64,000 nucleotides of DNA from Bolinopsis microptera (Eukaryota; Ctenophora; Tentaculata; Lobata; Bolinopsidae), in contig NC_087076.1 in the NCBI RefSeq assembly GCF_026151205.1, positions 23,368,828-23,432,827 of the forward strand, read 5' to 3'. Shown in pieces: positions 1 to 60,561 of this stretch. The first letter of the stretch is position 1, and every line of letters starts with the position of its first letter. The position numbers and the translations under genes are program-made. The notes beneath the pieces were generated by a model. It did not search any database, had not been told where the DNA came from, and was given only the letters and a program-made list of their open reading frames with translations.

Positions 1-720
1 TGGGTTTTGTCCTTCTCTTTTCTGTGTCCCGTCCGTTTTGTTTTGTGAATTGTTTTGTAGGAGTGTTTTAATATTTTAAATCGAATACGTAACTCAATAG
101 GTTAATAATAACAAACACCATACTTATTTTAAATTAATTGATTAATATCGATATATAACCAACATCCAAACATTAATTTATTTATTACCTTTTATATATG
201 AGTTAAACGATCGATGGCTTATCTAAAATTTCGATAATGAACTTCATATTTATTAGTGCCGCGTGCTGATATATATTTGGGATTCAATCCCACCCAATCG
301 TGGCGATAACATACTTTTGTGCTTGGCCGGTTTTAGGTTTGAGGTTTGTGCTCCAAAAGTGGTAAATCGGGTGCTAGGTAAAGACTCTGCAGCCAACTGG
401 GTCCTTTTTGCCATATAATAATACAAAAGTAATAAATCAAAGTTAAATTTATTACCATTATTCACATCAATACTTATCATAAATTCTAAGATTGGCAACA
501 CAATGCGAAAATGGATGTCTTAATAAAAACTTGATTTTGTGTTCACTAATAATCTATGTACTTTCAAAGTTGAATTTAGTTAATGTATGAAATGCCACCC
601 TCATTGTTAGGGTTAAAATTTAATTCTTAAAAATTTTTTAAAATTGAGAAGATTGCTCATATGACTTAAAATTTATATTTTAGCATAAGATATCTAATTT
701 TTAAATAGTTGGTTACAGTT
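1..720. other. Non-coding AT-rich stretch with one arm of an inverted repeat
   Basis: No reading frame is supported by all copies. At about 378-412 lies a sequence that, on the minus strand, resembles the segment at about 757-790 on the plus strand (about 29 of 33 bases when the copies are compared). Otherwise I see only AT-rich DNA. Confidence 0.5.
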
Positions 721-948
721 CTATGACAGTACTGGCATGATCAATTTTGTTGTGGCTGGTAAAAGGACCCAGTGCCTGTAAGGGCTTTACAGAACCCCTG
801 GGGCCCACAATGTGCTGGGATCAGGCCAGATGTTATATGTAGAGCAATGTATTTATTTCGGTGCTAGGGTACGTGGTATAGTGGTGGTTCATGTTTAATG
901 GGTCAGTTTTTCTTTGTGTGATAATGATCCATCCAGTGCTAGTGATGT
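721..948 (+). CDS. Possible exon of an unrecognised gene with a membrane-like segment
   Basis: After an acceptor-like TTGGTTACAG, comparison of the four copies gives an open frame starting FYDSTGMINFIVAGKR, then QLPVRALRTLGPQCDG and a hydrophobic, tryptophan-rich part near FIYFGAMVTWYSWW, which could be a transmembrane helix. The frame then either stops shortly after or reaches a donor GTGAGTAAATC; sequence noise prevents a decision. A second possible exon follows at about 1,095-1,205. I do not recognise the protein. Equivalent positions are about 18,697-18,931, 36,509-36,750 and 54,285-54,520. Confidence 0.38.
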
Positions 949-1094
949 GAGTAAATCATGCCCTTCCTACAATATATCACGTTTAACTATAAATTTGGTT
1001 TTTACCAAAGAAATACTGTGGCACTAAGTCAAGAATTTAAAATTTGTTCTCTCATGGGACTCATTGTATTGTTAAAGCGTTTTTTTTCCCCAGC

Positions 1095-1205
1095 ACTATA
1101 CACAACAAAAACCTGATCGGCCCACGAGGAAACCACAGTCGCAGAACAGGAACCCCAATTCGTGATCCTCTATTCTGCAGATCGTGTGTATTTATCTATG
1201 AACTA
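1095..1205 (+). CDS. Possible downstream exon of the same plus-strand gene
   Basis: A strong pyrimidine tract and CCCCAG acceptor precede an open stretch readable in several copies: QQKPVGPPRKHSRR, then KPNCAPLFC. It is basic and proline-containing. It could be the end of the gene whose hydrophobic exon lies at 721-948, or untranslated sequence. Equivalent stretches begin near 19,075, 36,886 and 54,655. Confidence 0.27.
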
Positions 1206-1899
1206 AGCTTAATGCAGTTAGTAAATTTTCTGGATAATTAAAGTCGTTTGATTTGTTTATGTGTCAAAGTAATGTCCTGTTATCATATATTGGCATCCCG
1301 GTGGGCAAACACTCCACCCAAAGGCTAAGGCAAAACCCTTTCAGTGTTTCACCATACGAAGTTTAGGTGATTTGAACACTTACTTCAGCTACAACTCCTC
1401 ACCCATGGACGGCGAGACGTAGTGAGCTCAAAATATCTATAGCATTTACAGTCAGCAAACACTATACACAACATACATACGATAACTAACAATGTTCAAT
1501 GACATTACTCATTTAAAAGAAAATATAATCTGTATCTAATTTTTAAAATAAATTGAAGAATAATAATACCTGAAAGAGAGGAAGTGAAGGTGTGTGGGGG
1601 TTCGGGTGAGGTTAGATAGAGTAGGAAAACAACCAGGATCCTGGGGCCGCAGGATTTTATAACTTTGTTGTTGATGATTCGTTTTTTGTCGTCTCTTAGG
1701 TTAAATATAGGCTGATAACTTGTCATGGTTTTTTTTATTTTGCAATACACCGTGGTTTACTATATGATCTATGTTTACTAAATGCCAACCTATTTCAATG
1801 ATAATTCATTTGCATCAAAGTTGTAACTGCACCAAAGCTGTCGGTGCATATTTAGATTTATTGTTCTAACATTAGATTTCTTATGAATTAATTCTTGAT

Positions 1900-4800
1900 T
1901 TTACTGATGGGAGTGAGAGAAAGTCTATTTATACTTGTTGACTTCGGTCAGTGAATTTCCAAATACTAGTTGATTTGATAGATGAAATAGTGATGGATGG
2001 AGTGGTTGGGATGAAGTAGTTGTCTCGTCTTGGTGACTGTTGAATAATGAGAACTTGAGACTGGTGATTGGAACTTATTAATTTATCATTTCCATTTATC
2101 AGTGAACTTATGAAGATTGTGTGGAACTGTCAGAATGTTAACTAGGTACAGCATTGTTTTACTGTGAGTCTAGTCAGAATTCTTTGCCTAACATCTGCTT
2201 GATGTACTTTCGGTCTTTTCCGAGTGATAGGCCTTACTCTGGCACTTGTTTGATTTATTGAAGTATGTAATCATTATCACCAAGGAGATAATCTATGATT
2301 TCTTTTGTGTTTTAAATATGGCTTCTAGTTTTTATGTGTTACTCCTCCCCAAACAGATATTCAATAACATAGGTGTGATTAAAATGGGTGGAGGTACAGG
2401 TCCCTTATATAGTTTTTTAGGTACTCAGCAGTCTTAAGTTCCACATAGTATACCTATCTAACATTTCCAATTTACGGTTTAACGCTCTTAAAGGAGCATC
2501 CAAGTTCAGTTTTTGTTCAATACTGGACTCCAGAAACTTAGTTTTCCCTCCACCTTTTTATTTAATATTTTATTTAGTGTCAGTTCTAATTACATTTGTG
2601 TTTGAATCTGGTTCATTTCTACAGTTCGGGCTTTAAAGTGGATTTTAACTAACATTTCTTTATGTTGATTTTGCAGCAAGTTACTATTCATATACTGGAT
2701 GACATGTGTAAGTATTTTTATTTGCTTTGCAGTTAAAAGTGTTTTTATACATTTATCTACAACAAATATGTTGGTTGTAATCGGCAAAAAAGTATAAACT
2801 TACCTAGGTCTGATAATCTGTATATTTCATGATGTTGATTAAGAAATGCAAGGGACCTAATATACCCCTGAGGTACTCCAAATATTACAGCAGTTTCGGA
2901 TCTTCTCCAGTACTGAATACATTTTGCTGTCTATTAGTAAGGTAACTGGCTATCATATTTATTTGCCCGTCCCCCGAATTCCATTATCATTCACTGTTTT
3001 TAAGTCAGTTTATCATGACAGATTGTGTCAATTGCTTTTCTTAAATCAATGGAAGTTGCCTAGTACGTGTTTTTTATCTCTTTAAGAATTTTTCAATGTT
3101 GTCGCAAGATGTTGAGTGCATGGTTGTCGAGTGATTTTTTCTTAAGCATATTGATGTTCATATAATAATCCTGCGACTGTAAGAAACTGTTAAGCCTGGA
3201 GAATTTGATTTATTTCATGTATTTTTACCGAATATTGCTATGATTGAGATAGGCTGTAATTTTCTAGAAGCTACAGCATTTTCTTTCTGAGTTTTGGACT
3301 TATTTTACCTACTTTTAGGTCTCGAAAAAGTCACTGTTGCAACTTTCGTAGTACAATAACGATTTGTTGTGGTGCTACATTTTGACTGATTCTGCCTTTT
3401 ACTTATGTACTGGTATGTCGCTAGCCTTGCCATTCTTAAGTTCCCGATATGTTCTTAGCCACCTCATCAGGTGAGCATCATGTAGCTATATATTTGCTGT
3501 ATTCGATTTAGTAAGAAGTCACAGGAACTTGGAAGCTGATTATTTGTAAGCTTCCTAGTTCTGTGTATGGCTGCATTAGTTAGATGCTAGGGTACAAAAT
3601 ACTTATGAATTCATTAGCGATAAACTCTGCGAATCAGTTATCTTTTCATTGTCTTTGGTAAAATATAGGTCTGATATCACGGTTTCGGTTGCACGAATTT
3701 TTATTTATCAGTGCCCTGGTTTTACTTGGATTTCCCTGAGTTTCCAAGTAAATTACTTGTCAGAATAATATCAAGATACAGCTTTTGATTACGAACCTTT
3801 TTTAGTAGACTTTCTATATGCTTTGTAGTCATCATAACGGTTTCTTTTATTACAGCAGATTTGAACACAGGCATGGCCCCTTTTGTGTCTGTTTCGCCTG
3901 GTTACACTTAACTTTTCCTGACTTTCGCCCCAGTCATATAAGCCCATGGCTGTGGTTATGAGGGCTATATCCCGCCAGTAATCCATGGTTGTTCTGGATA
4001 GTGCGCTTAGTGGTTTTGGTACCAGCTAGTTTGCAGTTTCGTCAATTGCTGTTTTTAAAGATATCATGAAGTAGTAAAATCTATAATTGGTTCAGTGGTC
4101 TAGTTTGTTACCCAAGACTTCAGCAAATGTATCAGTGGTTTGATTTACTATAGTCATATAATGAGTGTGCTTGTGTCATAATTTTTGGTCTTGCTAATTT
4201 CCAGTCAAATATTGTAATTAGGGAGGTGATGAGATATGTGTTCAGTTATGTCTCAGAGCAGTATCAGAGTCTAGGTCTTTTGTAATGATGTTGTCGATGC
4301 ACTGAGGCATTACATCCAGGCTTTTCATGGAGTTGCTAATGATTATCAATGGAAGAAGGCCTACTACTAAATAGGTACATCTTCATACTGTGCAATAATG
4401 CTACTGTGGTTACTATGGAGATTAATGTTAAATCATCGACTCCTGCCATAAAAAAAAAAAATAAATTGTGTGTATGTTTTGGTGCTTTATCAAGTATTGA
4501 CGTCTGTTCTTGGAGAGCTTGCCTCTGCATTGCCACTTGGAGGGCGGTATACTACTCCTATAGAAGTAGAATTCCTAGTGAACTTCCTATTGTTACCAAA
4601 GGGGTTTCTAGATTTTCTGTTACTTGATGAAAGAGTTGTTTTTTGGGGACAGCATTTGAAGTGTTCGGAATAGGAGCTACTCCTGAGCCTTTTTCTTTCG
4701 AGTCGTAGGTATCTTGATAGAAGCCTCTCATAGCCTTTGTGTGTTCGTACTAGTTTTTCATTTCAGGGCCTACATTGTTTCGCAAGACCCAATTACATGA

Positions 4801-5160
4801 GAATTTGTTAGTAAACCTAGCGATTTCAATTGCCAGCGAGTCAAAAGTTTGATTTGTTGCCATCAAGATTTTGAAATATTAGTGAGTTTTGCACTTGTAA
4901 TTCGTTAGCAAAGGTGCGGTATATGTCTGTTACTGAATATGAGTCACAGCTTTCAAAGTAACTCAGAGATTTTACGTATTACATTCATCTGATCAGTGTT
5001 GTCTTCATTGTCTCATTCAGAAGCTTAAATGGGTTATAACGGTTTACTGCTAGGTGGGATACAATTATTGCAGTACAAGTAAACTTTTTTATTTTGTTTG
5101 TACTGGTGTTAAAACATCTAGAGTGAATGGACAATTTACAGTGGTTGCCATTCAATTTTA
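1900..5160 (-). CDS. LINE ORF2: endonuclease and reverse transcriptase
   Basis: On the minus strand the endonuclease is recognised by FSVIGLAETNV, SKVKGSGVALYISN, GVIYRPPSGNAEQ (near 4,550), AGDFNINLHSNHSS (near 4,425) and SCIDNI..ISHHLPI. The linker has WITGGI. The reverse transcriptase shows LKNGKASDIPVHV (near 3,430), NYRPIS, GIFIDLSKAFDT (near 3,040), GVPQGSVLGPLLFIIYINE (near 2,860) and FADDTNIFVV (near 2,775), the last holding the catalytic FADD box. After this come LGVIIDQNLNWD and LEAIFKTQKKCIRILFGD, typical of LINE C-termini. The protein makes cDNA by target-primed reverse transcription. No copy has an unbroken frame. Confidence 0.9.
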
Positions 5161-5559
5161 GATTGACCTAAGTAAATACTTTTTTAACTGTGGGACAACC
5201 TCTTTTTTAAGAACTTTCGTGTTGGAGGCTGATAGCCTTCAACATTGACGGCTGTCCTCACGGCGGATGAGAATAAAGTGTTGAACCTACCTTACCGTCC
5301 TCCTCCACCTCTTCCTCTATCAGTCCCTCCATGCATCCTAACATGGAAGTATTACGGATTTAAAGTAGAGTTTGGCCACTCCCTTTCCATTTGAGGTGCA
5401 GGTAATCACGTTCGGCCTTATCTGTCAACTTCCCTGGACATGGTTAGGCAAAGTAAGCCAGTGTTTATTGTCAGGAAGTCATCAAAGCATCAACGAATCT
5501 GGAACACCAAAGTTTTTGGGGAGTAGCTCACGCGAATAAGTTCTATAAATGTAAGATCT

Positions 5560-6470
5560 TTCCTATTTAAACAGCATTTCGAGTTGGTTAAAAGAGGGAC
5601 AAGAAATAACTTGGCGGTTGGATTGGCCTCTTGCATTTGTCAATCTTGAATTCTAGATGACTAATTATAGCAAAAAATTGCACGCTGAGATATTTAAACA
5701 GATGGTCTTCTATCATCATTTATACACCACACTTAATAACAATGTTCTTGTATCACATGCAAGGATAAGGGTTAATGTTCAATCTATTGTAGGAGTCCAA
5801 ACATCCGACAGGCAGCCACTTACCAAAGCTCCCTTTTGTGTTCCTCTCCAAATTTCATACCTGCTCCATTTGAATCAGAAGAAGATACAAGTATGGCACG
5901 ATTCTTTCCATCTATGATCTGAAGGTGGAACTATATCGTACTGCACCAGTGACTGACCCCTTCTGGATAGAGTGCTTGTAGTGAGCTGCTCCTTCTGGTC
6001 ATCCTGTAAAGATCTTGGAGTACACTTGTGCGTGTGAACTGGGTTGTTTCATTTCAGTGAAGAGATTTGCATCACTCAATGGGAAATGATGTCATATATG
6101 CTAGACTCTGGTTGTATCACCGTTTCTTAGTCTGTATTGTTCAGGCAGATACCCTGCCTTCTTCAGCAGCGGTTGTGATTCAACTCCGATGTTATTTACA
6201 GGGTTTCCTTCTGACAGAACTCCTATTGATTTTAGGACAAGTGTAAGCAATTTTATCAGGGATCTCACGGTTTTCTTATTCTCATCTCTGGATCGCTATA
6301 CTTGTACCTCTCGCAAAAGGTAAATACTGAAGCCCATTCTCCGAACTGAACTGAAGAGATTCGCAGTATTGGAGAAGGTCTGATTCTGCATTCCACTGTC
6401 GTTGAATTATTCACGGTGTCTACCACAGGTTTTTCCTCTGTTTTGATTGAAATAAATTTCGTGCACATAC
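5560..6470 (-). CDS. LINE ORF1 with SGNH-hydrolase-like motifs
   Basis: Comparing copies on the minus strand gives an acidic start around EEKPVVDTVEEFIDSD, a middle with RKTVEIPDKIATLVLKIM, and a later part containing SDSNGAGMKF and then YKNIVLYGGVNDVIEDHL. The pair DSNG and GGVND, about 50 residues apart, is what one expects for the catalytic serine block and the GxND block of SGNH hydrolases (family knowledge: several LINE groups have an esterase in ORF1). The best single-copy reading is at 41,560-41,865. Whether the enzyme is active cannot be judged from this noisy sequence. Confidence 0.6.
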
Positions 6471-6559
6471 ATGAATGAATGGTTATTAATTTAATTTTAT
6501 GTAGACCAAGCTCGTGACGGATGCTTCCTGGTAGATTCCAGTTCTTTTAGGCGGGGCAC

Positions 6560-7269
6560 CCGACTAAAGCCAATTTAGATATAATAATCTATTTCATGAG
6601 AAATTAACAGAAAACGGAATACCAATCAAATAGATGATTATAGATGAGTTAGTACCATATTGAATATGCAAAATGCCCCCAACCACATAGTGTAAATTTA
6701 TATAGAATTCAATTCCATATTCCTCATTAAACCTCAATACCTAGTCAATATAATAGCCCAAGCAAAATTTAAATAACTTCTTATATACCTTACATTGTCA
6801 TACTACAAATGAATTAAAACATTTTAAATACTGCTTGACCTAGAGAATAAATTCTAAGCCTATAATGCAAGTGAAATATTTAGATGCAATTAATGTATGC
6901 CTAATGTGAGTATCATTTGTCATGTCCTTGTAAAAAAGTCTGTACATGAGATTTGAGTAAAACTAATATAGAAGAAAAAACAGGAAGTTGTCGTCTGTTG
7001 TAATATTATATAAAATATCTAGAATTTTATTAGAATATAAATATCATTCAGTCAAATTGGGTTGTTCAATATACTGTACATTATCAAATGTTAAAACTGG
7101 GTGATACAGTCACACAAAATAAAAATTTACTAAGTATGATATGTTAATAAATTAATGTGGTCCTATAAAAACTACCAACTAAGTATAATAGGTCAATAAT
7201 TAAAAGTGGTTTAATGGTGGTCTTTGATAGGAAGGTGCTTAGCATTTTATGCAGAACAGTTGATGGATT
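6560..7269. other. Non-coding stretch between LINE and OSGEP
   Basis: AT-rich DNA with no frame kept between copies. The missing C-terminal exons of OSGEP would be expected here and are not seen. A short sequence TTGTCGTCTGTTG at about 6,989 recurs in OSGEP exon 6 at about 7,279. The array's right-hand junction (60,561) falls in the same stretch in copy 4. Confidence 0.6.
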
Positions 7270-8718
7270 ATCTGAGGAATTGTCGTCTGTTGGGAGATAG
7301 ATCGCTCGTTCGGTTATCTCCACTGCATCGCGAACACTGTTTCTGGAAATTACAGTATTATTATGTTTAATCAACAGATAAATGCATTATCCGGCCAAGT
7401 TTCAACAAACTGAAAGTTAGTAATGGGTGACGTTTAATAAGTGAACCCATGTTAATTTTACGCACAGAAGATGATTTTGTTTTGCTTAACCCTGTAAAGA
7501 ATAACAAAGATCGCTTTAGGGCAGTCTCCTGCCGCAAGGCATCTTTACAGCAGTCCTTCAATGTGCGATAACAGTCTGGAAATTGCAGGGTGACGCCAAT
7601 TGAATGTTAGAGAATGGGATGTATATTGTATATGAAAGAAGATATTACATGATACAATATCCGAGCTTATCTTTACTATATATAAACGCGAGACGATATA
7701 TTTGTATGTATATATCCGTGCCCTTTTACTGACTCCACGGCATCAACTTTAACGCATCTTTCCGCAAAAACCGTTATAAGTTATACAACTGAAACTTTTT
7801 TTGACTGGGTCAATGCTTTAATGGCTTCAAATCAGCACTGAAAAAAATAAAATAAAAAATGGCCAAGGAATATTAATTTAGTGCCCAATAAAATAATAAA
7901 AAATTTTTTTTTGGGGTACTCCAAGTGGTTGTCAAAAAACGCGAATTAAATAGGGAATAATCACTTTTTGTCTATCGTGTCTTAAAACCACTTTAGTGTT
8001 AGACGGGGTTCCTGCTAGAATAAACATTCTTTGACCAAACCAAGGAAAAGATGACCATCCTTTCCTTTGACTCAGTTAAGGTAGCTCAATAAAACTTTTT
8101 TCCCTGTTTAGCAAGTGCTCACATGTTGTATCCTGGGACAGGGGTCGTTACTTACTTCATCACTCTGGCTAACCTGCATGTAGGCGTCTTATTTTGGAAT
8201 TAATTCGGCCAGAATCCAATGTTGAAATACCAAAGATACTAAGTTTGGCTATACAAAATAGTTTTTACGAAATAGAAAGCGGAGATTTACTCTTTTAAAT
8301 AATTTGATTAAACGTTTAAACTAAAACCGTTCCAAGTGCTTTGACGACTGCTAGTATCCAGGGTTTCAACGTTATCATGTATCTCTGTTTCATGTAATTG
8401 ATCAACCTGTGTATGGCCTCCGACTCGTAGAGTACTGTGGGGTTATTGCAACCTGTTCCTGGTCAGTATACACTACACCTATGCTTTATTGTATTCTGTA
8501 TACATCTGATGATTATATGTATTGATTTTCCTTCTTATTACACATCAATCTGCATTATAATCATTTTAAACTATTTATTATTTTGTTTTTCGGAATATTT
8601 TACCCACGTATTGATTTCCTTATCCTTGGCAGAAGTATTGTAAAAATATCTTTTCCTTCGTAGATTAAACAAAATAAGTCAAGGCTGTAACTCAATTCAA
8701 CTGAGGGAAAGGGGGGGG

Positions 8719-8761
<43 letters not shown>

Positions 8762-9364
8762 AAAAAAAAAAAAAAAAAAAAAAAAAATGGATTGAAATCT
8801 GTTTTCACCAAAACTGAGAATATCATTGAAGAAAATAAAGATTAAATTCACAACAACATGTAATACAGACCTGTCTCACCCATTCTCAAAATGAGACGAT
8901 ACATTGGTTAAAAGGCATTGAGTGGAATGTTCCAGGTTGCTCCAGAGAGAGGTGCGCGCGCTACACGGCAGTGCTGGACATAGCCGGCGCTCCCATCCGG
9001 TCTTTAGTATAACTCACACAGTCTATATCGGTTATTGATAGACCACCTGTTCCTGAAAAGAAGAGATACGGTGTTAAGCGCTCGTTTTTCCATACAAAAC
9101 TACACATCAAGTTTCAAGTATGGCTCGGTGAAAGTCCATAGATTGAGTATGTTAAGTTTTAAAACAGCATACTTAATCGATAGCCTGTTTGAATAGTTTG
9201 AGGATATTGTCTCGGTGATGTTGCGCGGTGTGACGTTGGTAAGACCGTTGACCGGGGGTGCACAGTAGGGTGGTCGGGGGTTGGACAATACTTCCACCAT
9301 CCGCTCAAATCCCTACTCCTTTTTACTTGTTTGCATCTTCCTTCAAACCGATTGAGAGTACCAT
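7270..9364 (-). CDS. OSGEP: tRNA N6-adenosine threonylcarbamoyltransferase (OSGEP/Kae1), apparently truncated
   Basis: OSGEP is the Kae1 subunit of KEOPS and makes t6A at position 37 of ANN-decoding tRNAs. Six exons are seen by comparing copies: about 9,364-9,180 (GFEGSANKIGVGIVRDGEVL, PRRTY, FLPRHTAQHHRDNIL), 9,052-8,871 (VSYTKGPGMGAPLVSTAVVA, then NQCIAHVEIGR with the metal-binding His-x3-type site), 8,458-8,330 (ADNPTVLYVSGGNTQVISY, ETLDIAVGN), 8,173-8,040 (LSNDPCPGYNIEQLAKQGKK, DVSFSG), 7,575-7,492 (CTKADLCFSLQ) and 7,342-7,270 (ETVFAMLVEITERA). The last exon runs on into LPTDDNSS and a stop that copies 2 and 3 share. The family's C-terminal part of about 100 residues, including GGVGCN and DNGAMIA, is not found in the unit. 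A poly-A burst at 8,708-8,787 lies in intron 2. Confidence 0.88.
8708..8787. repeat. G8 followed by about 69 A (with one T), copy 1 only
   Basis: At the matching places copies 2 and 3 have only a short AATGAGAAATGATTG or AACTGGAAATGGATTG. The run lies in OSGEP intron 2. It is not a retrotransposed poly-A tail, since there is no element beside it and no target-site duplication. Probably a read error burst. Confidence 0.88.
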
Positions 9365-9575
9365 TGTTTCAGCTAACTTTAAGATGGAAATTATTGTGTT
9401 GATTGTTGCGTACTATTCGTACTATTTATTTAGTATATATAATCAAATTGATTGAGAACAGTTAATTAGGCAGGTTAAATACCATACTATGGTCAATTTT
9501 ACGGTAAATAGAAATAGTTAATATAAAAAGTCAACGGTAGTCTATACTTCTCTTTAACCGTTCACTATAGTAAGA

Positions 9576-10843
9576 CTAAGCTAAGTTGCTGGAAATAAAT
9601 CCGCAGTCTCGTTCGTACTTAATTTCCTTCGAACTAATATGTTTAATTTTCTTTTTCTTAGGTTGCTCATCTTCTGACGATTCTGACTCTTCATCATCAT
9701 TATCCTCTGAATCACCACTATCCTTATCACTGTCCCTCAACAGAATGTTTTTAATATCCTCATCCTGTTTTCAACGGGACCACTGCCCTAACAAATTAAT
9801 CATTCTATTGTCATGATCTCTCTTCATCATGCGACAAACTACAGGCCCTTATAGAGTTATCAGAGTGATCCCAATGTGGCGTCAGGGGTTTGTGAGGGAA
9901 AGAGGGTGGATGGAGGTAGCTCGGATAACACCGTCCATACATCCTAAAACTAGAATATCATAAGAATAACACAACCACGTATTCCACGCTCACTTCCTCC
10001 GAAAGGGTATCCTGTCTGATATTCCCCCCAGTTGTCCCACGGAAATATGTTCAACACCCTCTCCGTCCCCGCAAACAACTTACGTTGGTTCGCTCCAGTC
10101 ACATGTTAACAGCTCACTGTCTCATTCGTCAGAACGTGCTATGAGTTTGCTTTGTGTCTTGGTTCCAGACTAGAGAGGCGCCATCTCCAGATGCAGTACC
10201 ACGGGTGGATCCTGTGGATATCGACTGAGAAGGCGGCGATGAAGTGTCGTGCTTGGTTGTATCATCACGATGGGTTCTCTTTTGTCAGTTCCCACAATTT
10301 ATAACCTGTAATATTTGAAAAGACAATTAGTAAAGTTTGTTATATGCACAAGGCTCTTAATTAGGAAAGGATTTGAATGTATTTTGACTTTTTGAGGGAG
10401 GGAATCAGCAAAGATATTTTCAGGAATTATTACTAACCTCACAAAAACATTCCTTAAAATAACTGAGCTTAAAAACTAAAGAAGTATAAAACAAACTTAC
10501 CCCTTCGTCATCCCCAGTAGGCGAATACTTCCCATCCCTGACTTCTACAGTGCATACAGCGGATTATCGTGAGGGCATTGATACCTATGCGGTTCTTCCT
10601 AGTCTCAATATATCTCACACAAATGATTGTCACTTGAAATGGACAGGAGTGAAGTGCCTGAAAACAAAATACGCGACAAGAGTCCGTGTGTTTGACCAGT
10701 ATATATTTTGGGAGATATATCTTGCAGGGACAGATAGACGATCTCACTCTCGATGGTGCTGACTGCTGTGAGGTCTGGGTCGGTGGGGATGATGTCGAAC
10801 GGGAAGGCTGTTTATTTGCGAGACATCTTTTGGGCTTCTTCAT
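9576..10843 (-). CDS. WDR55: WD repeat-containing protein 55
   Basis: WDR55 is a nucleolar WD40 protein needed for ribosomal RNA processing. Two exons are seen. Exon 1 (10,843-10,501) starts MKKPK and includes DPDLTAVSTIEGEI, CVCDIETRK and ATGDDEG, ending at donor GTAAGTTTG. Exon 2 (10,305-9,576) begins VIKLWDLKKRRTHRELIQPE, followed by LVAASGDGRLSVWN, VVCGTERGVLNIFTWDNWG, a DISDRYP block and LGCMDGVIRAT. It ends with an acidic tract (DSDKDSGDSEDNDDE..SSED), then KKKK, then ETADFFSDLA and a stop; a DFF-x-DL ending is typical of WDR55. Frames are broken by noise. The gene lies between OSGEP (about 210 bases downstream) and RP9 (about 510 bases upstream), all in one direction. Confidence 0.88.
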
Positions 10844-11357
10844 TGTGCTTTGTGTTCTTAATTACTTGTTGTCTACAATCTACTGCATGCTATCTGTAGA
10901 TCACTTTATTAATAACGGTCCGGATATAATGCTGGTATCGTGATTTATGCACTCCAAAAGCAAACATTGCAACAGTGTATGATATGATTCGAATTTTTGC
11001 CTTCAATAAAACACAGTGAAAAATTACATCTTGTTCGTATCTTCTTAACATTATAAAAATCAGTTCGTACTTTATAACTCACAATAAATAGGTAATATGG
11101 CTGTGGTAGACGTTAAAGTCAATAATATTTGTCAAAACTGTATTTCCGTCGTTGTGTGTCAAAAAAACTAGTAGTCTGTTTGAGAGTTTGTAGAAAATAT
11201 AACTGGGGTTAATTCAAGAGTTAATACCTTTTAGTCCATATCATGTGTATTTTGTAATCCCGATAACATTCTAGTTGACGTACTGTATTGAAATACTTTT
11301 TCAGTATTTTATGATTAAATCGTAGTTCAGAAACTCTGAATCTCAGAAAACTCATGA
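10844..11357. other. Intergenic stretch between RP9 and WDR55
   Basis: AT-rich DNA of about 0.5 kb, with no frame conserved between copies. It should hold the 3' end of RP9 and the 5' untranslated region and promoter of WDR55 (both minus strand). I see no recognisable element. Confidence 0.5.
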
Positions 11358-12530
11358 TCATTCTTTTGAATCCTCATGTCCGACGGGTTGTGTCTCCTTT
11401 TTTTCTTCTTTTTATTTTTCTTTTCTGAACTCCTCTTTTTTCCATGATCTGTATCTTTCTCCCTCGTGGATTGATTGACTTTTTCTTTTCTTCTTATTGC
11501 CTCTTCTTCTTTCGTCTTCTTCTTTTCTTTTTCGGAGTCTTCATCACTGCCACCACTAGTATCTTCTCCACTTTGCTTTTCATCTGAGCTATCCCTCAAC
11601 TCTTTTTGGTGTTGCCATCCTCATCCTGGTCATCGTTTGCTGAGGAATTATTTTAATTATTTATTATATTAATTGCCATGCCTAGCATGAAATATTTTAC
11701 TACTTACTTGCACTTGTGTAGGTTGTAGTAGCATTAGATCGGCGTTGTCTGCCACAGGCTATCCCGAATTAAGGAAGCTTGCTTCATCATTCATCAATTT
11801 ATTAATTGATATTTGTAATATACATCAATTTTATTGCTTGATTGGATTTTCAAAAATAAATGTGTAAGCTGAATCAAAGTATACTGATCGTTCATTACTG
11901 ATGGGCAAATCGGTCGATACAATTTTAAACGACACTTCTAAAACATAGCAATTACAACGTAGACCAACGAAGGATCTCTAGCTCAAAGGCTCAATTTACC
12001 TACCTTCTGCCGCATCATGTGATACATTGATCCTCGTGAATCTTACGAAGCTGTTCGTTTGAGGTTCCCTTTAGAGGCTAATGTTCACTCTTTATTCCTG
12101 TTTCGGTGACCATACTGTGTGCATCGCCAACATTGCATCACTTTTACCTCCTTCCCTAGTGGCATCCACAGCCCTTTTGTTGGGGCAGACTTCAGAATTT
12201 TCTCGCACTGCAAACGATAAACATACATTATGTGCCTAACTTATTCCCTTCGAAAACATTTTATCGAAATATCGTACCTGCATAGCCACGAATATAAAAT
12301 TATCAAAAGACGTATTTTAAAACGTTATAAACATATTGTACACTTGTTTGTTATAAACAAATTTACACGTTTTCACCTCGCTGTTCATCCGGCAGGCGGC
12401 TCACAAGTCTCGGGTTTCTGCTTCAGATCTGCTACGTGACCATTTCTAATGGATCTTGGTAGAACAAGTCAGTTTGTGTTAACTTGTTGGCTTCTTTTCT
12501 CGGAGTTTTGGAGCCAGGCGATCTCGAGCT

Positions 12531-12593
<63 letters not shown>

Positions 12594-13950: not shown

Positions 13951-14000
13951 CTTGTAAGTGATAATTTTAATTAGTGATATTCGTGAGTACGACTTCCGAC

Positions 14001-48278: not shown

Positions 48279-49014
48279 TTCTGCTACAGGTTGGGATATT
48301 GTATAAAATGGATATTTTAGTAAGGTGTTAGAGTCTGTAGGAAGATGATTTAAACAATCAGTGAACGAAACTTAGAGCTTTCATTTATAGAATGAATGTG
48401 CAAAATAAACAAGCTTTGATTAATCTCGATTTTTGCCAACTTTATGTAGTCAGTTTTAAACTCGATTCTGATCTTGAAATCAGCGAAATAAATAAATGAA
48501 TAAAAATTAAGAGCTTAGTTGGTCATACGTTATACTAACCATCCACAAATACTTACTTATACGGTTACCCAAATCATCATTGTACGTAGTCAGGTTAGTA
48601 GCATGTTCTTGAAAAATAATTGTATTATCATCAACTCGAATAAATTTTTTTGAATCCACGTCGAGAATATATCTAAAAAGTCTAGGGGTCTAGGTGAAAT
48701 TTCTGATAGTTAAATATTAAATCCCTAAAACAGACCGAATTGAGCTAAAGGCAACATAAGACATCTGAAACTACTTAAATGTTATTAATCTAACTTCCCA
48801 TATAATTATTAAACATAATATTCGTTATGAATAGATAAAATTATGATTATCAGAAACTGTCAGACAAAACTATTGTTAATGTTAGATGAAATTTAGTAGG
48901 GAATTTAAAATAAAATACAGCTATACTGGTTGCAATTTTTTTATGAATTAACGGAATTGATATCAGTCTGTGGAGACAGATAATTTTAACCCATTTAACA
49001 CCAAATTAATTGTT

Positions 49015-49620
49015 TCTGAGTGTCTCAACCGTGTACATGTTTTACCAAAACCTATCGTTCTGGACTAGTCCCTGCATAGACAACAGCATACCTATCCACT
49101 GACGGAGGTGGCCAGTGCATATGCATTACCAAACAAAAACGACAGATCCCAGGATTGTAAAGATACTTGGGTTAGTGTCTATGAGGAGAACATCAGGGGC
49201 CCGACACTTCATGACACGGGGTATGAAGATGAAGTTATGACCAGAGAGCACTGGCAATATCGTAAAGTTGATGATTTCGGGGGAACGACTTTCGGGGTGT
49301 TTTGTGCAGAATGTGAGGGCTTCCCAGATCTCTCCAGTGGCCAACAGAGAATTCGTCATGACACCTGATATATATTGTCATAATTGATTATGCAATAGAC
49401 ATCTTCTTATTTATAAACTTAAGAAGCCACGGAAGTTAATATATGGACACGTGACAGCAATTAACCAAACCAATTGCAATGTTCAGGAGATAACTCTCAC
49501 AGCTAGGATGTTATAAAGTTTGAAAATATCTTACCATTGCTGACAGGTTCATCTACTTCATGTTGTGGCATTTCATTTCCGTGTCTATCTTTCCTTGAGC
49601 CACTCAGTTAGTAAGACCGT
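49015..49620 (-). CDS. Possible minus-strand exons, copy 3
   Basis: Matches 13,367-13,950. Block b (about 49,363-49,170) is unbroken on the minus strand here and reads SLLATGEIWEALTFCTKHPE, framed by a TATATATCAG acceptor and a GTATCTTTAC donor. The plus strand is also partly open (GVFCAECEGFPDLSSGQQR). Product unknown. Confidence 0.34.
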
Positions 49621-49662
49621 CTGTAAGTGCCTTTTAATTGTGGAAATTCGTGAGTTACGGTC

Positions 49663-50313
49663 ATGGATACCTATAGCCATGCAAGAGCAGGCTATATTGT
49701 CAGCGATGAGAAGTCTTACTACTTGGCCAAGTATTATATGGTCAAAGTATTTAACATTTTAATCAAATCGGTTTAATTATAGTAAACGACGGCATTGTGC
49801 TGATTATACAGATTTGATCAAAATGTTAAGTCCATTACATAAATCAAAAAGTAACTGATTCGGTTAAGAAGGTAGTTATTTTTGTCGTGTACCCACCAAG
49901 TGTCTAGGATGTGAGAAGTAAATTTCACCAGAATCATGTAAATCCAGGAGACGTCCCGATTTATCCGTCTTTATACATGAACAAAGAGCAACTCAACTAC
50001 TATCTACATCACCGACAGGTATTGACAATATTTATACCTTTTTCTCTGAGTTAATTTGAAAATAAACCAAAGTTATCGTCACTTAACATTAATGTCATGT
50101 TATTTTCAATAACTCACAATTGTGTTACAAGGAGCTAAGCTTCTCCTGTTCAAATTTACATCATAAAAACCAGTCATCTGCTTTGTTTTAAAGTACCAGC
50201 TAATATACTCCAAGCAGCATCACGGGACTGGGGTTACAACTCTTTCCCAACGCTTGAGTCGGATTAGTTGAACATTTAAGGGGACGGGCATTTGGAAGCC
50301 AAAATGGCTCCAG
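49663..50313 (+). CDS. Possible three-exon plus-strand gene, copy 3
   Basis: Matches 14,001-14,659. Exon p1 (49,663-49,746) is intact: MDTYSHARAGYIVSDEKSYY continues open to the GTATTTAAC donor. Exon p2 ends at 50,018 and exon p3 covers about 50,200-50,313. Confidence 0.45.
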
Positions 50314-51454
50314 CGTAAGTAACTCGCAGTTAAACTAGGTATGTGGTGTTTGTCCTGGAGGCGAGTCTGTCACCAGAAGTATTCCTGTAATTAAAGTGTT
50401 TTTTACAGCACACAATGTTAGACCACTCTTTCAGGTACATGAATCACTATTTGGCTTCTAAAATAATAGCCAAGTATAATAGTTCATATCAAGGTTTGTT
50501 AGTAAAATGGTTTTTTAGGACATGATTATGTAGTAACCATACCTTTGGCGAAACATAGCATTGATGATGCACTGGCAAAAGTCAAGAAACATGGAGTAGT
50601 ATATATTCTCATTTTCAGACCCCATATGTTCATCTTGTTTATTTTCTCTTGGACTCTATGCCGTAGTTGATGTAGAAACTGAATATTCCTGAAAAGTTAG
50701 TTTTAAATAAATGAATATTCTAATTTCAGGGAATTTTTGTTATGATGTAATGTCATCTGTTTGAGTAAAAGCCATTAAAGCGCTCTATTAGTTAGATAGA
50801 TGGAATCTTATACATGGGTCACAGATACTGGATTTTACTGAACTTATTTGAACACATAAGTAATGGTCGAATGATTAAATATATCACCATTCTTACATTT
50901 AAAACATTTGTAGTAATTGCATTGTGTCCCAATTTCATGATATAAAAAAACTCTAAATCGTGAGTATGGTGTTATCAGAACAACAGTTATCTTTATAATA
51001 GTACAAGAATTATAACTTGGTTTATGTAGCTTACCAAAACAACACCTCTATATCTTAAATTAAGAGTAATGCTAATTAATCTGTGTAAATTATATAAACA
51101 ACTCATTTTTAGTTTTATATATTGGTGGAAATACAAATAATGAGAAATTAAGTAATGAAAGACTATAATTTGAGATATACAGGTTTATACTATGTGCTTA
51201 ATTTTCATGCAATCTCAAATACAACTGTTTGACTGGGACACAATTTCATAGTATTAAATAGCTCTGGGGAAGCAATTTGTAGTAGTACTTGTGCAAAGAT
51301 TGTCGATTTTGTGAGGTCAAGTTACAGTGTCAACTAACATCTTTTATATATACTCAGACGGGAAATGAAAAAGACAAAGCACATTGACAGGGTTATACCA
51401 CCACGCCGAAAATGGAGTTCCTGTTAGGTACATGCGACTCCAAATCAAGTATTT

Positions 51455-51609
51455 GGGGTCGTTCAATAAATACGTATCAGTTTTTGGACAATTTTACCCA
51501 CTTCCTCCGTTAATCTGTTTTACACAAAGCGATTGTGTCATAATTACACTATCGTTATCATTGGGAAACCTTACTCCCTCGGCTGTTTAGTAATATAGTG
51601 TGCGACCCC
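51455..51609. mobile_element. MITE-like element, copy 3
   Basis: Left end GGGGTCGTTCAATAAATACG, right end TAGTGTGCGACCCC; both show a few errors relative to copy 2. Same element as at 15,777-15,934. Confidence 0.68.
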
Positions 51610-53109
51610 TGAGGTACCTGTTATATACTATGATACATATAAACAAACCGTTGTGTGAATATTTTCATAAAAATTGTACGATCGATATGCGGCTCGATTT
51701 AAAAATTTTTGGCACAAATTACGCATGGTCCATTTGTAATATTCAATGCTTGTTTATCAATGCTTATAAACGACAATAAAGTGTTTCCTATTTGCATCAT
51801 GAATGTGCGCAGCGTACGAGGCGGACAAGTCCTTGAGGGTGATACTGGTAAAATAATTTGTTTCCAAGAACGGTCGCGAGTGTCAGCCACGCGGGGCTTT
51901 TTTGTAGGTTATGAACCTACATAATTGCAATGCATTCAGTTTGGGGATTTGCAATTATACTCGTCTAATTCATTCGAAGTAGAGCTCGCTGCTTCCTTTG
52001 ATCTCCACCAGAAAACAATGTCATGGTCCCTGGCCTCTAGTAAATTTCCGACTTTCTTCCCCCATCTCAATTATCAAGAGCCGTATCAAAAAGCTCTTAC
52101 TTGAATCCCAGATCGATGACAACACCTGCGGGCGTGAATTGAGTGGCTCCCATAAATAGCTGGGGCATGATCAGCTAGTCAATCAGCATTCCCATCCTTG
52201 CATACAACCTAATTACAAATGCGCTTAATTATTCTGTTCAAAAGCATCCTGTCTGGAAGTTCCCTGACTGCCTTTGGGTGAATCTTTGGATCTATTTTTG
52301 GATCTATTTTGAATATTGATATGATTTTTATATACTATATATTCATCGCTTAATTTCCATTGTCGCCTGAAACAATGGCCACAATCAAATCTACTCTAGA
52401 AACCCAGTACTCATCAAGCCTAGTTGAATTCATAACTAGTTGAACAGATAAGTTCCAGTTTCATGGTCAACTGGAACCTTTTGGGCCATGCACAAGCCAA
52501 TAGCATGTATGGGTCCTGCAGTGGGGTCTCTTGTCTTGGATCTGTGTTTTGATCCGTCTTTTCTTAAATTTTCCATTTGTGTCACTAGAATACACCTTTT
52601 AAAATGTTAATCGACACCACTGGTCCTAGTTAAATTAGCCATGGCGCGACTTCTCGAACGTAACAGTTATTATAGGTTGTGACATACTATTATATTCTTA
52701 TTTTTATATTCATATGAATCGAGTGCATGCTAATAAATAAAACTTTGTTTTACTAAAAATACTTTGTTTTACGAAGAGGCAGCGGCTGGGTCTGCATTTC
52801 ATTAACCATTGAATAAGTTTGGGATTGTGCTTTGACATTACCTAGCTTGATTGTTCCTTGTTTGCTCCTCTCAAGGATTTTTCATCCTGGAAGCAGGACG
52901 TTCATGAAGCTTGAAAAAAGCGACCGTGAAAGCGCTAGTGACTGGCGTGCCATGTAAATAAGTTAAACTAAATAAGAAATCTCGGAAAAACACGTTTATT
53001 CGAGGTAGGACGTGCATTTTGATTTTTATATTTAATTATTTATATGTCGACACTTGTTTTCGAACGGCTTAATGAAGTGATATTGGGATCTGATTTTTGG
53101 TATTGTGTG

Positions 53110-53365
53110 GAGGACTTAGCCGCCGTCGACGCACGCCGCGCGTAATTGCAGTTCTTGCTTCGCATTCTTCAGATGCGCGTCTTCTGTCGTCGTCGTCGTC
53201 AGTCGTCGTCGTTGCTTGCTTCGAGAGCAAACGATCTGGTCGGAGTGACATTGTCAATCATGGGATAAGCGCAGCAAACTTAAACATTGTATAAACTTTA
53301 TCTTTTCATTTCCACTGCGTGATTTACCGTCGCCGATATAATGAAATGGCGCACGCGCTTATCCG
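53110..53365. repeat. Hairpin cluster with CGT microsatellite, copy 3
   Basis: Contains GTCGTCGTCGTCGTCAGTCG-like repeats and TTGCTTGCTTCGAGAGCAA, a damaged form of the hairpin at 17,589-17,609. Confidence 0.45.
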
Positions 53366-54284
53366 TAACTTGCAGTCTTTTAGTTCTTTATATTTTATTA
53401 TTTGGTATCTCTTACGAACGTAACGCGAAAATAAGTTGTATCACACTCCCGGTTTTGGAACCTCAATGTTAACTGCAGCACTGTGCCAGCCCAATATACT
53501 CTAGAAGTATGATCACACCTATTTGAAATGAACAAGGATCCATAATTTAATATAATCAGATACTCATCAACAGCAGAGTTTCCGGTCCGTGTGATGTGTT
53601 GTCCTTCTCCTATCTGTGTTCCACGTCGTTTTGTTTTTGATGAAATGTATTGTAGTAGTGTGTTAATATTTAAATCGATCGTACTCAATTGTTAATAATA
53701 ACACAAAATCCAATTACTATTTTAAATTAATGGATTAATATCGGATATATACCAACAACAACATTAATTATTCTTTAATAACCTTTTATATATGTGTTAA
53801 CGCTCGATGGCATATCTAAATTGAATAATGAACTTCTATATTATTGTGCCGCGTGCTGATAACTTATTTTGGGAATCAATCCCACCAATCGTGCGATAAC
53901 ATACTTTGTGTTGGCGGTTTTAGGTTTGAGTTTGTGCCCAAAAGTGGTAATCGGGTGCTAGTTAACGCTCTTGCAGGCAACTGGCTCCTTTTGCCAAATA
54001 ATAAAACAAAAGTTAATAAAACAAAAGTTAAAATTTATTACCATTATTCAATCATACATATCATAATTTCTAATATGGAAAAACAATGCAGAATGGATGT
54101 CTTAAACTATATTTGTTGGCATAATAATCTATTTACTTTCAAGTTGAAATTTAGTTAAGTATGAAATGCTCCACATCATAGTTAGGGTTAAATTATAATT
54201 CTTAAAAATTTTAAAAATTGAGAAGATTGCTCTTTGATTAAATTTCAAATTAGCAAAAGATTTCTATATTTTTAAAAACTAGTT

Positions 54285-54760
54285 GGGTTAAGTTTTGGGC
54301 AGTACTGGCTTGATCAATTTTTTTGTGGTGGTAAAGGACCCAGTTGCCTGTAAGGGCTTTACGAACCCTGGGACCCACAATGTGATGGGATCAGGCCAGA
54401 TGTTATATGTAGAGCAATTTATTTATTTCGGAGTATGGTTACGTGGTATAGCTGGTGGTCATGTTTAAAGGTCAGTTTATCTTTGTGTGCAATTTTCATC
54501 CAGTGCTTAGTGTGTGGAGTAAATCATGCCCTTCTACATTATATCACGTTTAACTAATAAATTTGTTTTACCACTGAAATCTGTGGCACTAAGGCAAGAA
54601 TTAAAAATTTTGTACTCTCATTGACTCATTGGATAGTTAAAGCGTTTTTTTCACCAGCACTACTACACAACAAAAAACCTGTGGCCACCGAGGTCAACAC
54701 AGTCGCAGAACAAGGAAACCAATTGTGCTCGCACTCTATTCTGCGATCGTGTTTATTTAC
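54285..54760 (+). CDS. Possible plus-strand gene with membrane-like segment, copy 4
   Basis: Same candidate exons as at 721-1,205, including the CACCAG acceptor and ACAACAAAAAACCTG start of the second exon. Function unknown. Confidence 0.33.
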
Positions 54761-55059
54761 TTTAAACTAGCTAATTGCAGTTAGTAAAAATTTTTGGAAT
54801 CATCTAAGTCGTTTTGATTAGTTTTTATGTGTCAAAGTAATGGCATGATAATCATATATGTGTGATCCCCGGTGGGCAAACACTTCGACCCAATAGGCTA
54901 AGGCAAACCGTTTTCAGTGTTTCACCTTTACGATGTAGAGATTTTGAAACATACTAGCACCTACAAACTCACCCATGGGACGAGACGTCGTGAGCCTCAA
55001 AATATATAGCATATACCAGTCAGCAAACACTATACACACATACTACGAATAACAAACAA

Positions 55060-58000
55060 TGTATAATGCCATTACTTCAGTAAATGACAAATATATTGCT
55101 ATCTAATTTTAAAAAAATTGAAGAATAAACCTGATGAGAGGAGAAGGAGAGAGGGGTTTGGGAGAGTTAGAGTAGGAAACACAGGATCCTGTGCGCAGGA
55201 TTTTAAAAATTTGTTGTATGATGATTCGTATTTTGTCGTCTCTTTGTATTAATATAGGTCTGATATCTTGTCATGGTTTATTCGCTAAAACTCCGTGGGT
55301 TTACTCATATGATTATGTTTACTAAATCACTATTTCATGATAATTCAAATTGCATCAAAGTTGTAACTGCACAAATGCTTGTCGGTCATTATTTAGATTG
55401 TAGTTCTAACAATGATTTCTTAAGATTATTCTTGAATATACTCGATGGGAGTGGAGTAGTCTATTTCACTTGTTGACTTACGGCAAGTGAGTCCAAATAC
55501 GAGTTGATTGATAGATGGAATAAGTGAGGATGGAGTGGGAGGATGAAGTAGTTGTCCGTCTTGTGACCTGTTGAATAAAGAGGGAAACATTGAGACTGGT
55601 GATTGAAATTTATTAATTTAAACATCTTTCAGTAAACAGTGCAACTTATGAAGATTGTGGACAGGGCAGGAAGGTATATCTTACAGTTTGGTTTACTGTG
55701 TTTCTAGTTCAAGAAATCTTTTGCCTAACATCTGCTTGATAACTTTTACGGTCTTTTCCCTAGTGATAGGCCTTACTCCTGGCACATGTTTTGAACTTTT
55801 TGAAGTATGAATCATTCTCACCAAAGTGAAATTCTTATTGCATTTCTTTTGTGTTTTAATAAATATGGCTTCTAGTTTATTATTGATACACACTCCCCAA
55901 AAGATATTCCATAACAGAGGTTGGTGTTCAAAAAGGGTGTGGTACAGGTCCTATATAGTTTTTTAGGTACACAGGTCTAATTCCACATGTCTACCTATCT
56001 CACATTCAATTTACGGTTTACCGCTCTTAAGGTGAGCATCCCAGTTCAGTTTGGTCAATAATGACTTCCAAGAAATCTTAGTTTCCTCCACATTTTTAAT
56101 TTCTAATATTTAATTTAGTGTCAGTCTATTTCATTGGTGTTTGAATCTGATCATTTCTAACAGTCGGCTTAAAGTGGATATATCAACATTTCTTTATGTT
56201 GTTATGCAGCAAGTTACTCTTCATATACTGATTGAACAAGTTTAAGAATTTTATTAGCTTTGCAGTAAAGTGTTTTTATACATTTATCTACAACAATATG
56301 TTGGTGTCATCGGCAAAAAGTATAAGCTTACCTAGGTCTGTTACTCTGTTATTTCTTTGATGTAGATATTGAAAAGCAAGGGACCTAATACTGACCCCTG
56401 AGGACACCAAATATTTACAGACAGGTTTTTTTTCGGAGTCTTCTCCAAGTTACTGATAATATTGTGTCTATTAGAAATGGTAACTGTGCTATCAATTTAT
56501 TTGGCCGTCCCCCGAAATTCCATAAATCATTCAGTTTTTTAAGCAGGTTTCATGACAGATTGTCAAAAGCTTTACTTTATCAATGAAGATGCCTAGTACG
56601 TGATTTTTATTCTCTTAAATGATTTTTTCAATGTAGTCGACAGTGAAGTTGAGTGCATGGCTTGTCGAGTGATTTTTTCTAAGCCTTATTGATTTTTCAT
56701 ATAATAATCCTTGCGACTGAAAGAAAACTGTTAAAGCCTGGAGAAATATGATTTTTTCAAGTATTTTTACAGAAATATTGCGAGATGAGTTAGGCCTGTA
56801 TTTTCAAAGAAGCTCAGACATTTTCTTTCTTATATATTTGACTTATTTACTACATTTAGGTCGTTTCTGGAAAAGTCACGTGTTGCATACATTCGTTTAC
56901 AATACCCGATAGTAGGTGGGCTAATTATGCATGATATGCCTTTACTATATGTACTGGTATGTCGCTAGCCTTGCCATTCTTTAAGTTCCGTTGATCTTAG
57001 CCACTCCTCAGGTGAGCTAGTCTGTAGTTTATAATTAGCTGTATTTCGGGAAATTTTTTAGGTAAGAAGTCACAGAAACTTGGAAGCTGATTTATTTGTA
57101 TCTCTCCTAGTTTGTGTAGGCTGCATTAAGTTTAGATGCTAGGGATACAAAATACTTATTGAATTCATTAGCTATAAATCTGCGAGCAGTTATCTTGCAT
57201 TGTTCTATGGAAACTATAGGTCTGATAATCACGTTTCTGTTTTGCACGAATTTTATTTATCAGTTCCAGGTTTTCTGGAAATTTCCTGAGTTTTCAGGTA
57301 ACTTCGTCTGAATAAATATTCAGATACAGCTTTTTTACGAACCTTTTTTAGAGCCTTTCTATATTTTTGTTTGTCATCACATAACGGTTTTTCTTTTATT
57401 ACAGCAGATAGAACACAGTGATGTGCCCCTTTTGTGTCAGTTTCGCTTTGTTTACACTTAACGTTCCGGACTTTCGCACCAGTCATCGTACAGCCCATGG
57501 CCAGTGGTTTACTTGAGGGCTTTATCCCGCAGTATCAATGGGGTGTTCTGGATAGTGCGCTTAGTGGTTTTGGGTACAGCTAGTTTGCAAGTTTTTCGTC
57601 AATGTGTTTTTAAATATATCATTGAAAGTTAGTTAAAATTCTATATTTGGTTCATTGTCTTGTTCTAGTTTGTTACCCAAGACTTCCGAAAAATTATCAT
57701 GTTGTTTGATTTACAATAGTCATAATTTTGAGTGTGCTTGTGAATATTTTTGGGTCTTGCTAATTTCTCCCAGTCTTATATTGTTAAATAATTGGGAGGT
57801 GATGAGATATGTGATCAGTTATGACTCCAGATGCAGTAACCAGAGTCTAGGTCATTTGTACTGTATGTGTGTCGATGCACGAGGCATTACATCCAGGCTT
57901 TTATGAGTTGATAATGATATTCAATGGAAAGAAGCCTCTACTTAAATAGGAACATTCTTCATATCTGTGCATTAATGCTACTGTTGGTTACTATGGAGAT

Positions 58001-60100
58001 TATAGTTAAATCACGCAATGTGTGTATGTTTTGGTGCTTTATAAGTATGACGACAGTTCTTGGTGAGCTTGTCAGCTTGCCACTTGGCAGGGCGGTTATA
58101 GTACTATATAGAAGTAGAATTTCCTAGACTACCTTATAGTTACAAAGAGGGTTTCTAGATTTTCTGTTACTTGTGAAGGGTGTTATTTTTGACAGCATTG
58201 AAGAGTCAGGAATTATAGAGCTAATCCTGAGCCTTTTACTTTCGAGTCGAAGGTTCTTGATAGACTGCTTCATAGCCTGTGAGTTGTACAAGTTTTTCAT
58301 TCAGGGCCTTCATTCGTTTTCAGCAAGTCCATATTACAGGAGAATTTGTTAGTTAAACCTAGCTATTTCAATTGCAAGCGGTTCAAAGTTTGATTTGTTG
58401 CATCAAGATTTTAAATTATTAGTGAGTTTTGACTTGTAATTCGTTAGCAAAGGTGCGGTTTATGTCTTTTACAAGAATAAGAGTCACAGCCTTTCAAGTA
58501 CCTCAGAGATTTTACGTATTACTCATCTGCATCTGTGCTGTCATCATTGTCTCATTCAGATAGCTTAAAGGGGTTATAAAACGGTTTACTGCTAGGTGGA
58601 TACAATTATTGCAGTACAAGTCAACTTTTTTATTTGTTTGTCACTGGTGTTAAAACATCTAGGGAGTGAACTGGGACAATTACAGTGGTAGATTTCAATT
58701 GATAGATTGACTAAGTAAATACTTTTTAAACTGTGGGCTACAGACCTCTTTTAATGAACATTCATGTGGAGGCTGATGCCTTCAACATGGAGGCTGTCCT
58801 CCGGCGGGATGAGAATAAAGTGTTGAACCTACCTTACCGTCCTCCTCCCCACCTCTTCCTCCTATCAGTCCCTCATGCATCTAACAAGGACAGTATTACG
58901 GAATTAAGTAGCAAGTTTGGCCACTCCCTTCCATTGAGGTGCAGGTAAATCCGTTCGCCATATCTGTCAAAGCCTGGGACTAGGTTAGGCAAAGTAAGCA
59001 GTGTTTTTGTCATGGAAAGTCATCAAAGCCAACAACGACTGGACACCAATGTTTTTGGGGCGTAGCTTCACGACGGACTAAGTTCTATAAAGAGTACATT
59101 TCCTATTTAAATCAGCATTTCGAGTTGTAAAAGAGGACAAGAAAATACTTGGGCAGTTGATTGGCCTCTTGAATTTGCTCAATCTTGAATTCTAGATGGA
59201 CTAAATTGGCAAAAAGTTCACGCTGAGATTTAACAGATGGTCTTATAACATCATTTATTACCCAAATAAAACAGGTTCTTGTATCCACATGCCAAGATAT
59301 GGGTTAATGGTCCATCCTATTGTAGAGTCCAAAATTCCGACAGGCAGCCACTTACCAAGCTCTTTTGTGATCCTTTCCAAATTTCATAACTGCTCCATTG
59401 AATCAAGAGAAGATAATTACTGGCACGTCTTTCCATTATTGATCTGATGGTGAAACTATATATCGTACTGCACAGTGACTGACCCTTATGGAATAGAGTG
59501 CTTGTAGTGAGCCGACTCTGTCTGGTATCCTGTAAAACTGGATCTTGGAGTACACTTGTGCGTGTGAATGGGTTGTTCATTTCAGTGAAGAGGATTTGCA
59601 TTCACCTCCAATGGAAAAGAGTCAATATGCTAGACTCTGGATGTATCACCGGTTCATTGTCTGAATGTTCAGGCAGATAACCCTTCGCCTTCTTATACGG
59701 TTGATAAAACATCGCTGTTTCATTCTGGAGTTTCCGTCGGCCACGAACTCTCATGATTTTCAGGCAAGTGTAGCAATTTTATCAGGGATCTCCACGGTTT
59801 TCTTATTCTATCTCGGGATCCGCTATACTTGTATCTCTCAAATGAACATATGAATGCCCATCTCTGACTGAACTGAAGAGATTCGCAGTAATTGGTGACA
59901 GGTCGATTCAGCATCACTGTTTCATGAATTCTTCCTACGTTGTCTACACAGGTTTTTCCTCATGTTTTGATGAAAATAAATTTTTGTGCACATACAGAAA
60001 TGGTGGTTTAATAATTTAATATATATGTAGACCAAGCTCTGTGCACGGGATGCTTCCTGGAAGAATCACAGTTCTTTTAGCGGGGCACTACCTAAAGCCA
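55060..60100 (-). mobile_element. LINE, copy 4
   Basis: Last copy of the element. FADD box near 56,305, GVPQGS near 56,385, LKNGKAS near 56,970, endonuclease about 57,850-58,450, ORF1 about 59,220-59,990. The C-terminal part is well read at 55,693-55,893 (NNKLEAIFIKTQKKCNKNF, VIKQMLGKRFLELE). The array ends about 460 bases beyond its 5' side. Confidence 0.87.
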
Positions 60101-60561
60101 AATTGAGATATAATACTCTTATCCTAGAGAAATTAATCAGAAATCGAATACCACATCATAATAATTGATATATATGAGTTGATAACCATATTTACTATGC
60201 AAAATGCCCCAACCACATAGCTGTAAATTTATATAGATTCAAATGCCATATTCATCATTAAACCTCCATACCTAGTCCATATAATAGCCCAAGCAAAATT
60301 AAATACGTCTTTATTACTTACTGTCATACTTCAATTAATTAACATTTGAAATCTGTTGACCAGAGAATAATTTCTAAGCTATGCAGTGAAAAATTTAGAT
60401 GCATTAATGAATGCCTAATGTGGGTATCATTTGTCAATGTCTTCGTAAAAAAGCTGTTCAAGAAGATAGGAGTAACTAATATAGAGAAAAATTACAGGAA
60501 GTTGTCGTCTGTTGTAAAAGAAAATAAAATATCTAGAATATTAATTTAGAATATAAATAAC

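Follow-up and report, generated by a model that had tools for sequence, protein, structure and literature searches.

The direct 17.8-kb blocks in this region of Bolinopsis microptera contig C5 are almost certainly uncorrected read text that was pasted into the assembly at several places; as a feature of C5 the array is an assembly artefact and not real. The pasted-read interpretation was reached from the assembly sequence alone. An initial annotation of the region had likewise proposed raw long-read data placed in an assembly, and this proposal held: the same error letters occur on C5, C4, C1 and at C2:4.53 Mb, and an accurate copy lies at C2:4.10 Mb. That annotation had left a choice between a real array and one locus placed several times, and our results point to both, a read placed several times that very probably came from a head-to-tail repeat.

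The window analyzed here is the whole 64,000-nucleotide stretch C5:23368828-23432827 of an assembly of 264.65 Mb in 232 contigs. Self-comparison of the window confirmed the direct copies of a unit of approximately 17.8 kb that had been described initially, with copies at offsets of approximately 17.7-18.0, 35.5-35.8 and 53.5 kb, identities of 80.5-82.5%, and an end at positions 60564-60576. The window contains 0.41 + 1 + 1 + 0.98 units joined at 7300/7301, 25279/25280 and approximately 43119/43120, and the array extends leftward past the window, reaching at least C5:23338001. The features in window coordinates are as follows.

1..7300, + strand: partial raw unit (right 0.41), ending at C2:4118752 in the alignment with the clean C2 copy and continuing leftward on C5
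416..6442, + strand: dispersed element within the unit, with a length of 5.93 kb in its clean copy on C10, recurring at approximately 18.4-24.4, 36.2-42.2 and 54.0-60.0 kb
7301..25279, + strand: full raw unit, running from C2:4101525 to 4118752, with its left join at 7300/7301
7301..7425, - strand: remainder of a TsaD/OSGEP exon cut by the unit edge (approximate; from the TsaD match on clean C2)
9570..10861, - strand: WDR55-like open frames, which the raw copies carry in broken form (approximate, transferred from the clean copy; Pfam PF24796)
12533..12590, + strand: 58-base poly-C run in one unit only, which looks like a read glitch
25280..43119, + strand: full raw unit, aligned with clean C2 (right join +/- 1-2 bases)
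43120..60563, + strand: raw unit stopping approximately 250 bases short of its end, with C2:4118502 as its last matched base
60563..60564, no strand: edge of the stretch that we read as pasted, from raw to normal quality; exact identity with C4 ends at 60563

The truncation of the last unit falls within a 760-bp dispersed element, at a point where the array on C4 carries on. Runs of 58 identical bases were seen once as poly-C in the window array and once as 58 G in the C4 raw stretch, and none was present in the clean C2 stretch.

A single clean copy of the unit lies at C2:4101525-4118752 (17,228 bp), with different sequence on either side. Its left edge cuts a TsaD (OSGEP) exon: the TsaD match at C2:4101428-4101649, which contains TAA three times in its read-through frame, straddles position 4101525. 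Two clean C2 frames match PF24796 (WDR55-like), each alone below the Pfam curated cut-off, and a UAA-transporter-like frame is also found within the clean unit. Beyond its raw stretch, C4 also carries a 99.7% match to the 760-bp element of the unit, and 665 bases of this element have matches that round to 100% at no fewer than 34 further places. The right edge of the unit falls inside another dispersed stretch.

The larger dispersed element gave at least 38 further genome match rows beyond three identical ones. Its open frame (C10 L028:1258-4269; C2 L031:1279-2544) has an AlkB-like 2OG-Fe(II) oxygenase match and a GDSL-lipase-like match, the latter below the Pfam cut-off, and on C10 an exo-endo-phos endonuclease domain follows in the same frame, outside the portion that the unit also has. 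The few element frames scanned contained no reverse transcriptase, and nothing informative came from the element's 93-aa and 85-aa frames or from the repeats in L006. To the left of the C2 unit are two related open frames (L029:4076-4909 and 5413-6471) with 83.6% DNA identity; the second, the only one scanned, contains a PLAT domain. That the whole unit might be one giant transposon was considered and rejected. Only the 5.93-kb part and smaller pieces were found in dispersed form, a non-element piece of the unit matches the clean locus and the raw copies only, and the left flank is unique; also against this reading, the unit ends on the left within the TsaD exon and on the right within a dispersed repeat.

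Ten raw pieces were entered for scoring against the clean C2 copy and nine were scored, the main left-C5 piece lying outside the scored part. The nine pieces carried 9.9-11.5% errors, comprising substitutions (3.5-4.7%), insertions (3.3-4.4%) and deletions (2.6-3.0%) in BLAST alignments. The substitutions were strand-asymmetric: in all nine pieces A>T changes occurred at 46-72 per 1000 against 4-9 for T>A, a ratio of approximately 5- to 18-fold. As mutation over time would hardly be asymmetric in this way across genes and spacers, we infer that the asymmetry stems from a base caller reading one strand. A read-type error load of this kind against an accurate copy is one mark of a gap filled with raw reads. 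Five clean copies of the in-unit element have 98.2-99.7% mutual identity, yet are only 87-89% identical to the window. Open frames have also taken no less damage than other DNA, the initial annotation having noted exons as damaged as introns. In MAFFT alignments the open frames differed at 15.2% and 13.3% (WDR55), 16.0% (UAA) and 20.3% (TsaD), compared with 13.9% for intergenic sequence, 13.4% for the dispersed element and 12.7% for the 760-bp element; the open-frame values are somewhat inflated because these frames sit in the left part of the unit, where there are allelic differences not common to all five copies.

The earlier description of the differences as mostly one-base indels was right about their length, with 1,855 of 2,317 indel events being of one base (MAFFT alignment, right 10 kb). 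Whether indels are the majority changes with the aligner, as does the substitution-to-indel ratio: they made up 57-65% of the differences in BLAST alignments of the nine pieces, but when the right 10 kb was aligned with MAFFT their share was 45-52% and substitutions amounted to 5.6-8.5%. When five full units were compared, a single unit deviated in 6,514 of the 9,028 variable columns, in agreement with the observation that usually only one copy differs. Deviations shared between units were still more frequent than in shuffles. Counting all types in the right 10 kb, 718 columns were shared by two copies (516 in shuffles), 113 by three (37.4 expected), 17 by four (1.8) and 1 by five; for substitutions only, the counts were 356 by two (236 expected), 59 by three (13.8) and 3 by four (0.65). 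Judged by eye, many of these columns look like shifted alignments or repeated error types, and given the sharing above shuffles a few could be real variants between units. Many pair-shared differences and a substitution-to-indel ratio like that of normal divergence had been named beforehand as signs against a raw-read origin. Singletons dominate instead, yet the sharing in the right 10 kb does exceed shuffles.

The same errors recur on other chromosomes. A block of C5 that ends at window position 60563 matches C4 (reverse strand) letter for letter over 70,563 bases, and another 9,789 letters to the left are identical as well. Counted together with the 827-base stretch between the two, the common block measures 81,179 bases by the coordinates of both sides, with 80,352 letters compared and zero differences. 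C1 was identical to the window across all 4,501 letters compared, and two 2,001-base pieces gave 100% matches on C5, C4, C1 and C2:4.53 Mb. The non-element piece has 19 genome matches (five on C5, five on C4, five on C1, two on C13, one at C2:4.53 Mb and one at the clean locus), 18 of which are raw-type, at 100% or 81-82% identity to the window, while the clean locus is at 87%. The fifth raw copy scores differently on two chromosomes (1557 bits at C4:572179 and 1563 bits at C1:16350926), and the other four copies have no such difference. The C4 raw array runs to 564970, past the point where C5 stops. Since independent read errors cannot coincide, identical error letters at unrelated places, a second mark of raw-read gap filling, indicate repeated pasting of a single uncorrected read or raw unitig. 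The C13 and left-C5 pieces have approximately 82-84% identity with each of the main-stretch units and, judged by their letters, are separately read text. Substitutions are nonetheless skewed the same way across all nine scored pieces, so that the C13 and left-C5 pieces may be further parts of the same molecule; that they are independent molecules is not proven, given this one common strand bias.

A sharp quality change at the edge, a third mark, was found at window 60563/60564, that is, at the right C5 edge only. From 60564 onward the main aligned stretch shows 96-97% identity to two dispersed copies, whose identity to each other is 97.9%, and a second short stretch to the right of 60564 has 93-97% identity to dispersed copies. 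Open frames of a gene family occupy window 61157-64000, three of them without a Pfam match, and window 61156-62600 has relatives of 93% identity at C5:22.70 and 21.47 Mb. An A-rich insertion of approximately 34 bases (C5:23348212-23348262, L035) is found on C5 no more than 50 bases from the start of identity with C4, and may represent the beginning of a read or the junction of two reads. On C4, the sequence adjoining the pasted block from 657200 onward (L022-L026) contains 24 C runs and 14 G runs of at least 9 bases in 42.8 kb.

A tandem array of real age and divergence, copied in recent times as one block from chromosome to chromosome, would also place the same letters on several chromosomes, and some real divergence would fit the excess of deviations common to two to four units. 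We rejected this reading, which we regard as extremely improbable, on the predominance of singletons, the strand asymmetry present in every scored piece and the damage to open frames, where indels disregard the reading frames of conserved genes. The stretch moreover ends in a jump to clean quality. Under the pasted-read interpretation, one read or raw unitig of at least 81 kb would have been pasted into C5 during gap filling or a similar step, and the same text also into C4, C1 and partly C2:4.53 Mb, with further raw pieces of like kind placed on C13 and to the left of the C5 stretch. The repeated unit would carry a cut OSGEP/TsaD gene, WDR55-like and UAA-transporter-like exons and the dispersed element. 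A read with dispersed elements that are present at many places could seem to bridge unrelated gaps.

The structure of the molecule that was read can be approached from its joins. All eight raw joins read in sequence (five on C4, one on left C5 and two on C13) link C2:4118752 to 4101525 within 1-3 bases, which is the head-to-tail join of one segment's ends seen in a tandem duplication, and at least five joins lie within one 92-kb stretch of C4. No microhomology at the join was visible by eye. A search of the genome with the join pattern (up to 3 mismatches, no indels) returned four hits, all in raw stretches, and no clean copy of the 4118752/4101525 join was found by this search. The C2 left flank was carried by 0 of 18 raw matches, and 0 of 19 right-flank matches fell within a raw stretch. 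The only copy that carries chromosomal flanks is the clean C2 one, and as no raw copy was found to reach either C2 flank, nothing places the array on a chromosome.

Raw unitigs may be stitched from several reads. The repeat could accordingly be due to the assembler, with separate raw reads of a single-copy locus stitched end to end and no tandem molecule behind them, and the odd insertion of approximately 34 bases near the start of the C4 block would suit such stitching. However, the clean locus lacks the 4118752/4101525 join at which the raw joins uniformly fall, and no raw copy found continues into the flanks. We consider stitching quite unlikely, and a head-to-tail molecule very probably existed.

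Comparison of five units with clean C2 revealed 125 runs of differences common to all five, of which 124 fall in the left 7.2 kb and a single one falls in the right 10 kb. Two insertions, each longer than 100 bases, account for many of the left runs, which leaves fewer independent differences. The larger insertion is also carried by both C13 pieces (approximately 400 bases, compared with 149 in clean C2). On this pattern the units appear to derive from a single allele, distinct on the left from the assembled one, and to be nearly identical to one another.

Two sources of such a molecule were weighed. We lean towards a very young head-to-tail chromosomal array of the C2 segment, on another haplotype and collapsed in the assembly, as the source DNA. 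A second proposal accepts the pasted read and derives the molecule from a 17.2-kb circular DNA, as its rolling-circle product or a long concatemer of it, whether natural or arising during library preparation; we hold this possible but not probable. The join without visible microhomology would suit it, as would the lack of a chromosomal flank on any raw copy found and the presence in the right 10 kb of one column only where five units jointly deviate from the clean copy. Interior reads from a long chromosomal array would look alike, however, a direct sign of a circle is absent, and no replication gene was recognized among the longer open frames scanned. That the read records a real and very recent amplification of the segment as a circle or rolling-circle product, by which a truncated OSGEP and the WDR55-like and UAA-transporter-like genes would rise in dose, seems to us rather unlikely.

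The false text read in sequence amounts to approximately 200 kb (at least 91 kb on C5, 92 kb on C4 and 20 kb on C13), and matches extend over a further stretch of at least 75 kb on C1 and of 10 kb at C2:4.53 Mb. Annotations would take such pasted text for broken gene duplicates and for segmental duplications between chromosomes that do not exist. On the biological side there remains a candidate copy-number variant at C2:4.10 Mb, for which the clean locus and the join give an exact and cheap test.

The titles and abstract openings returned by a literature search contained no report of such a case. Among known systems, the closest class of tools is that of LR_Gapcloser and TGS-GapCloser, which, as seems to have happened here, insert read text between contigs on the basis of end alignments. 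According to one evaluation, LR_Gapcloser can be run with uncorrected reads, and misassemblies were numerous when TGS-GapCloser was applied to a tetraploid test set (PMC10815858). Compared with these tools, one long stretch in several chromosomes is extreme. The likeness to extrachromosomal circular DNA lies in the fixed join of both ends of one chromosomal segment. With a collapsed tandem segmental duplication the region shares the one clean copy, the head-to-tail raw joins and the allelic differences common to five units.
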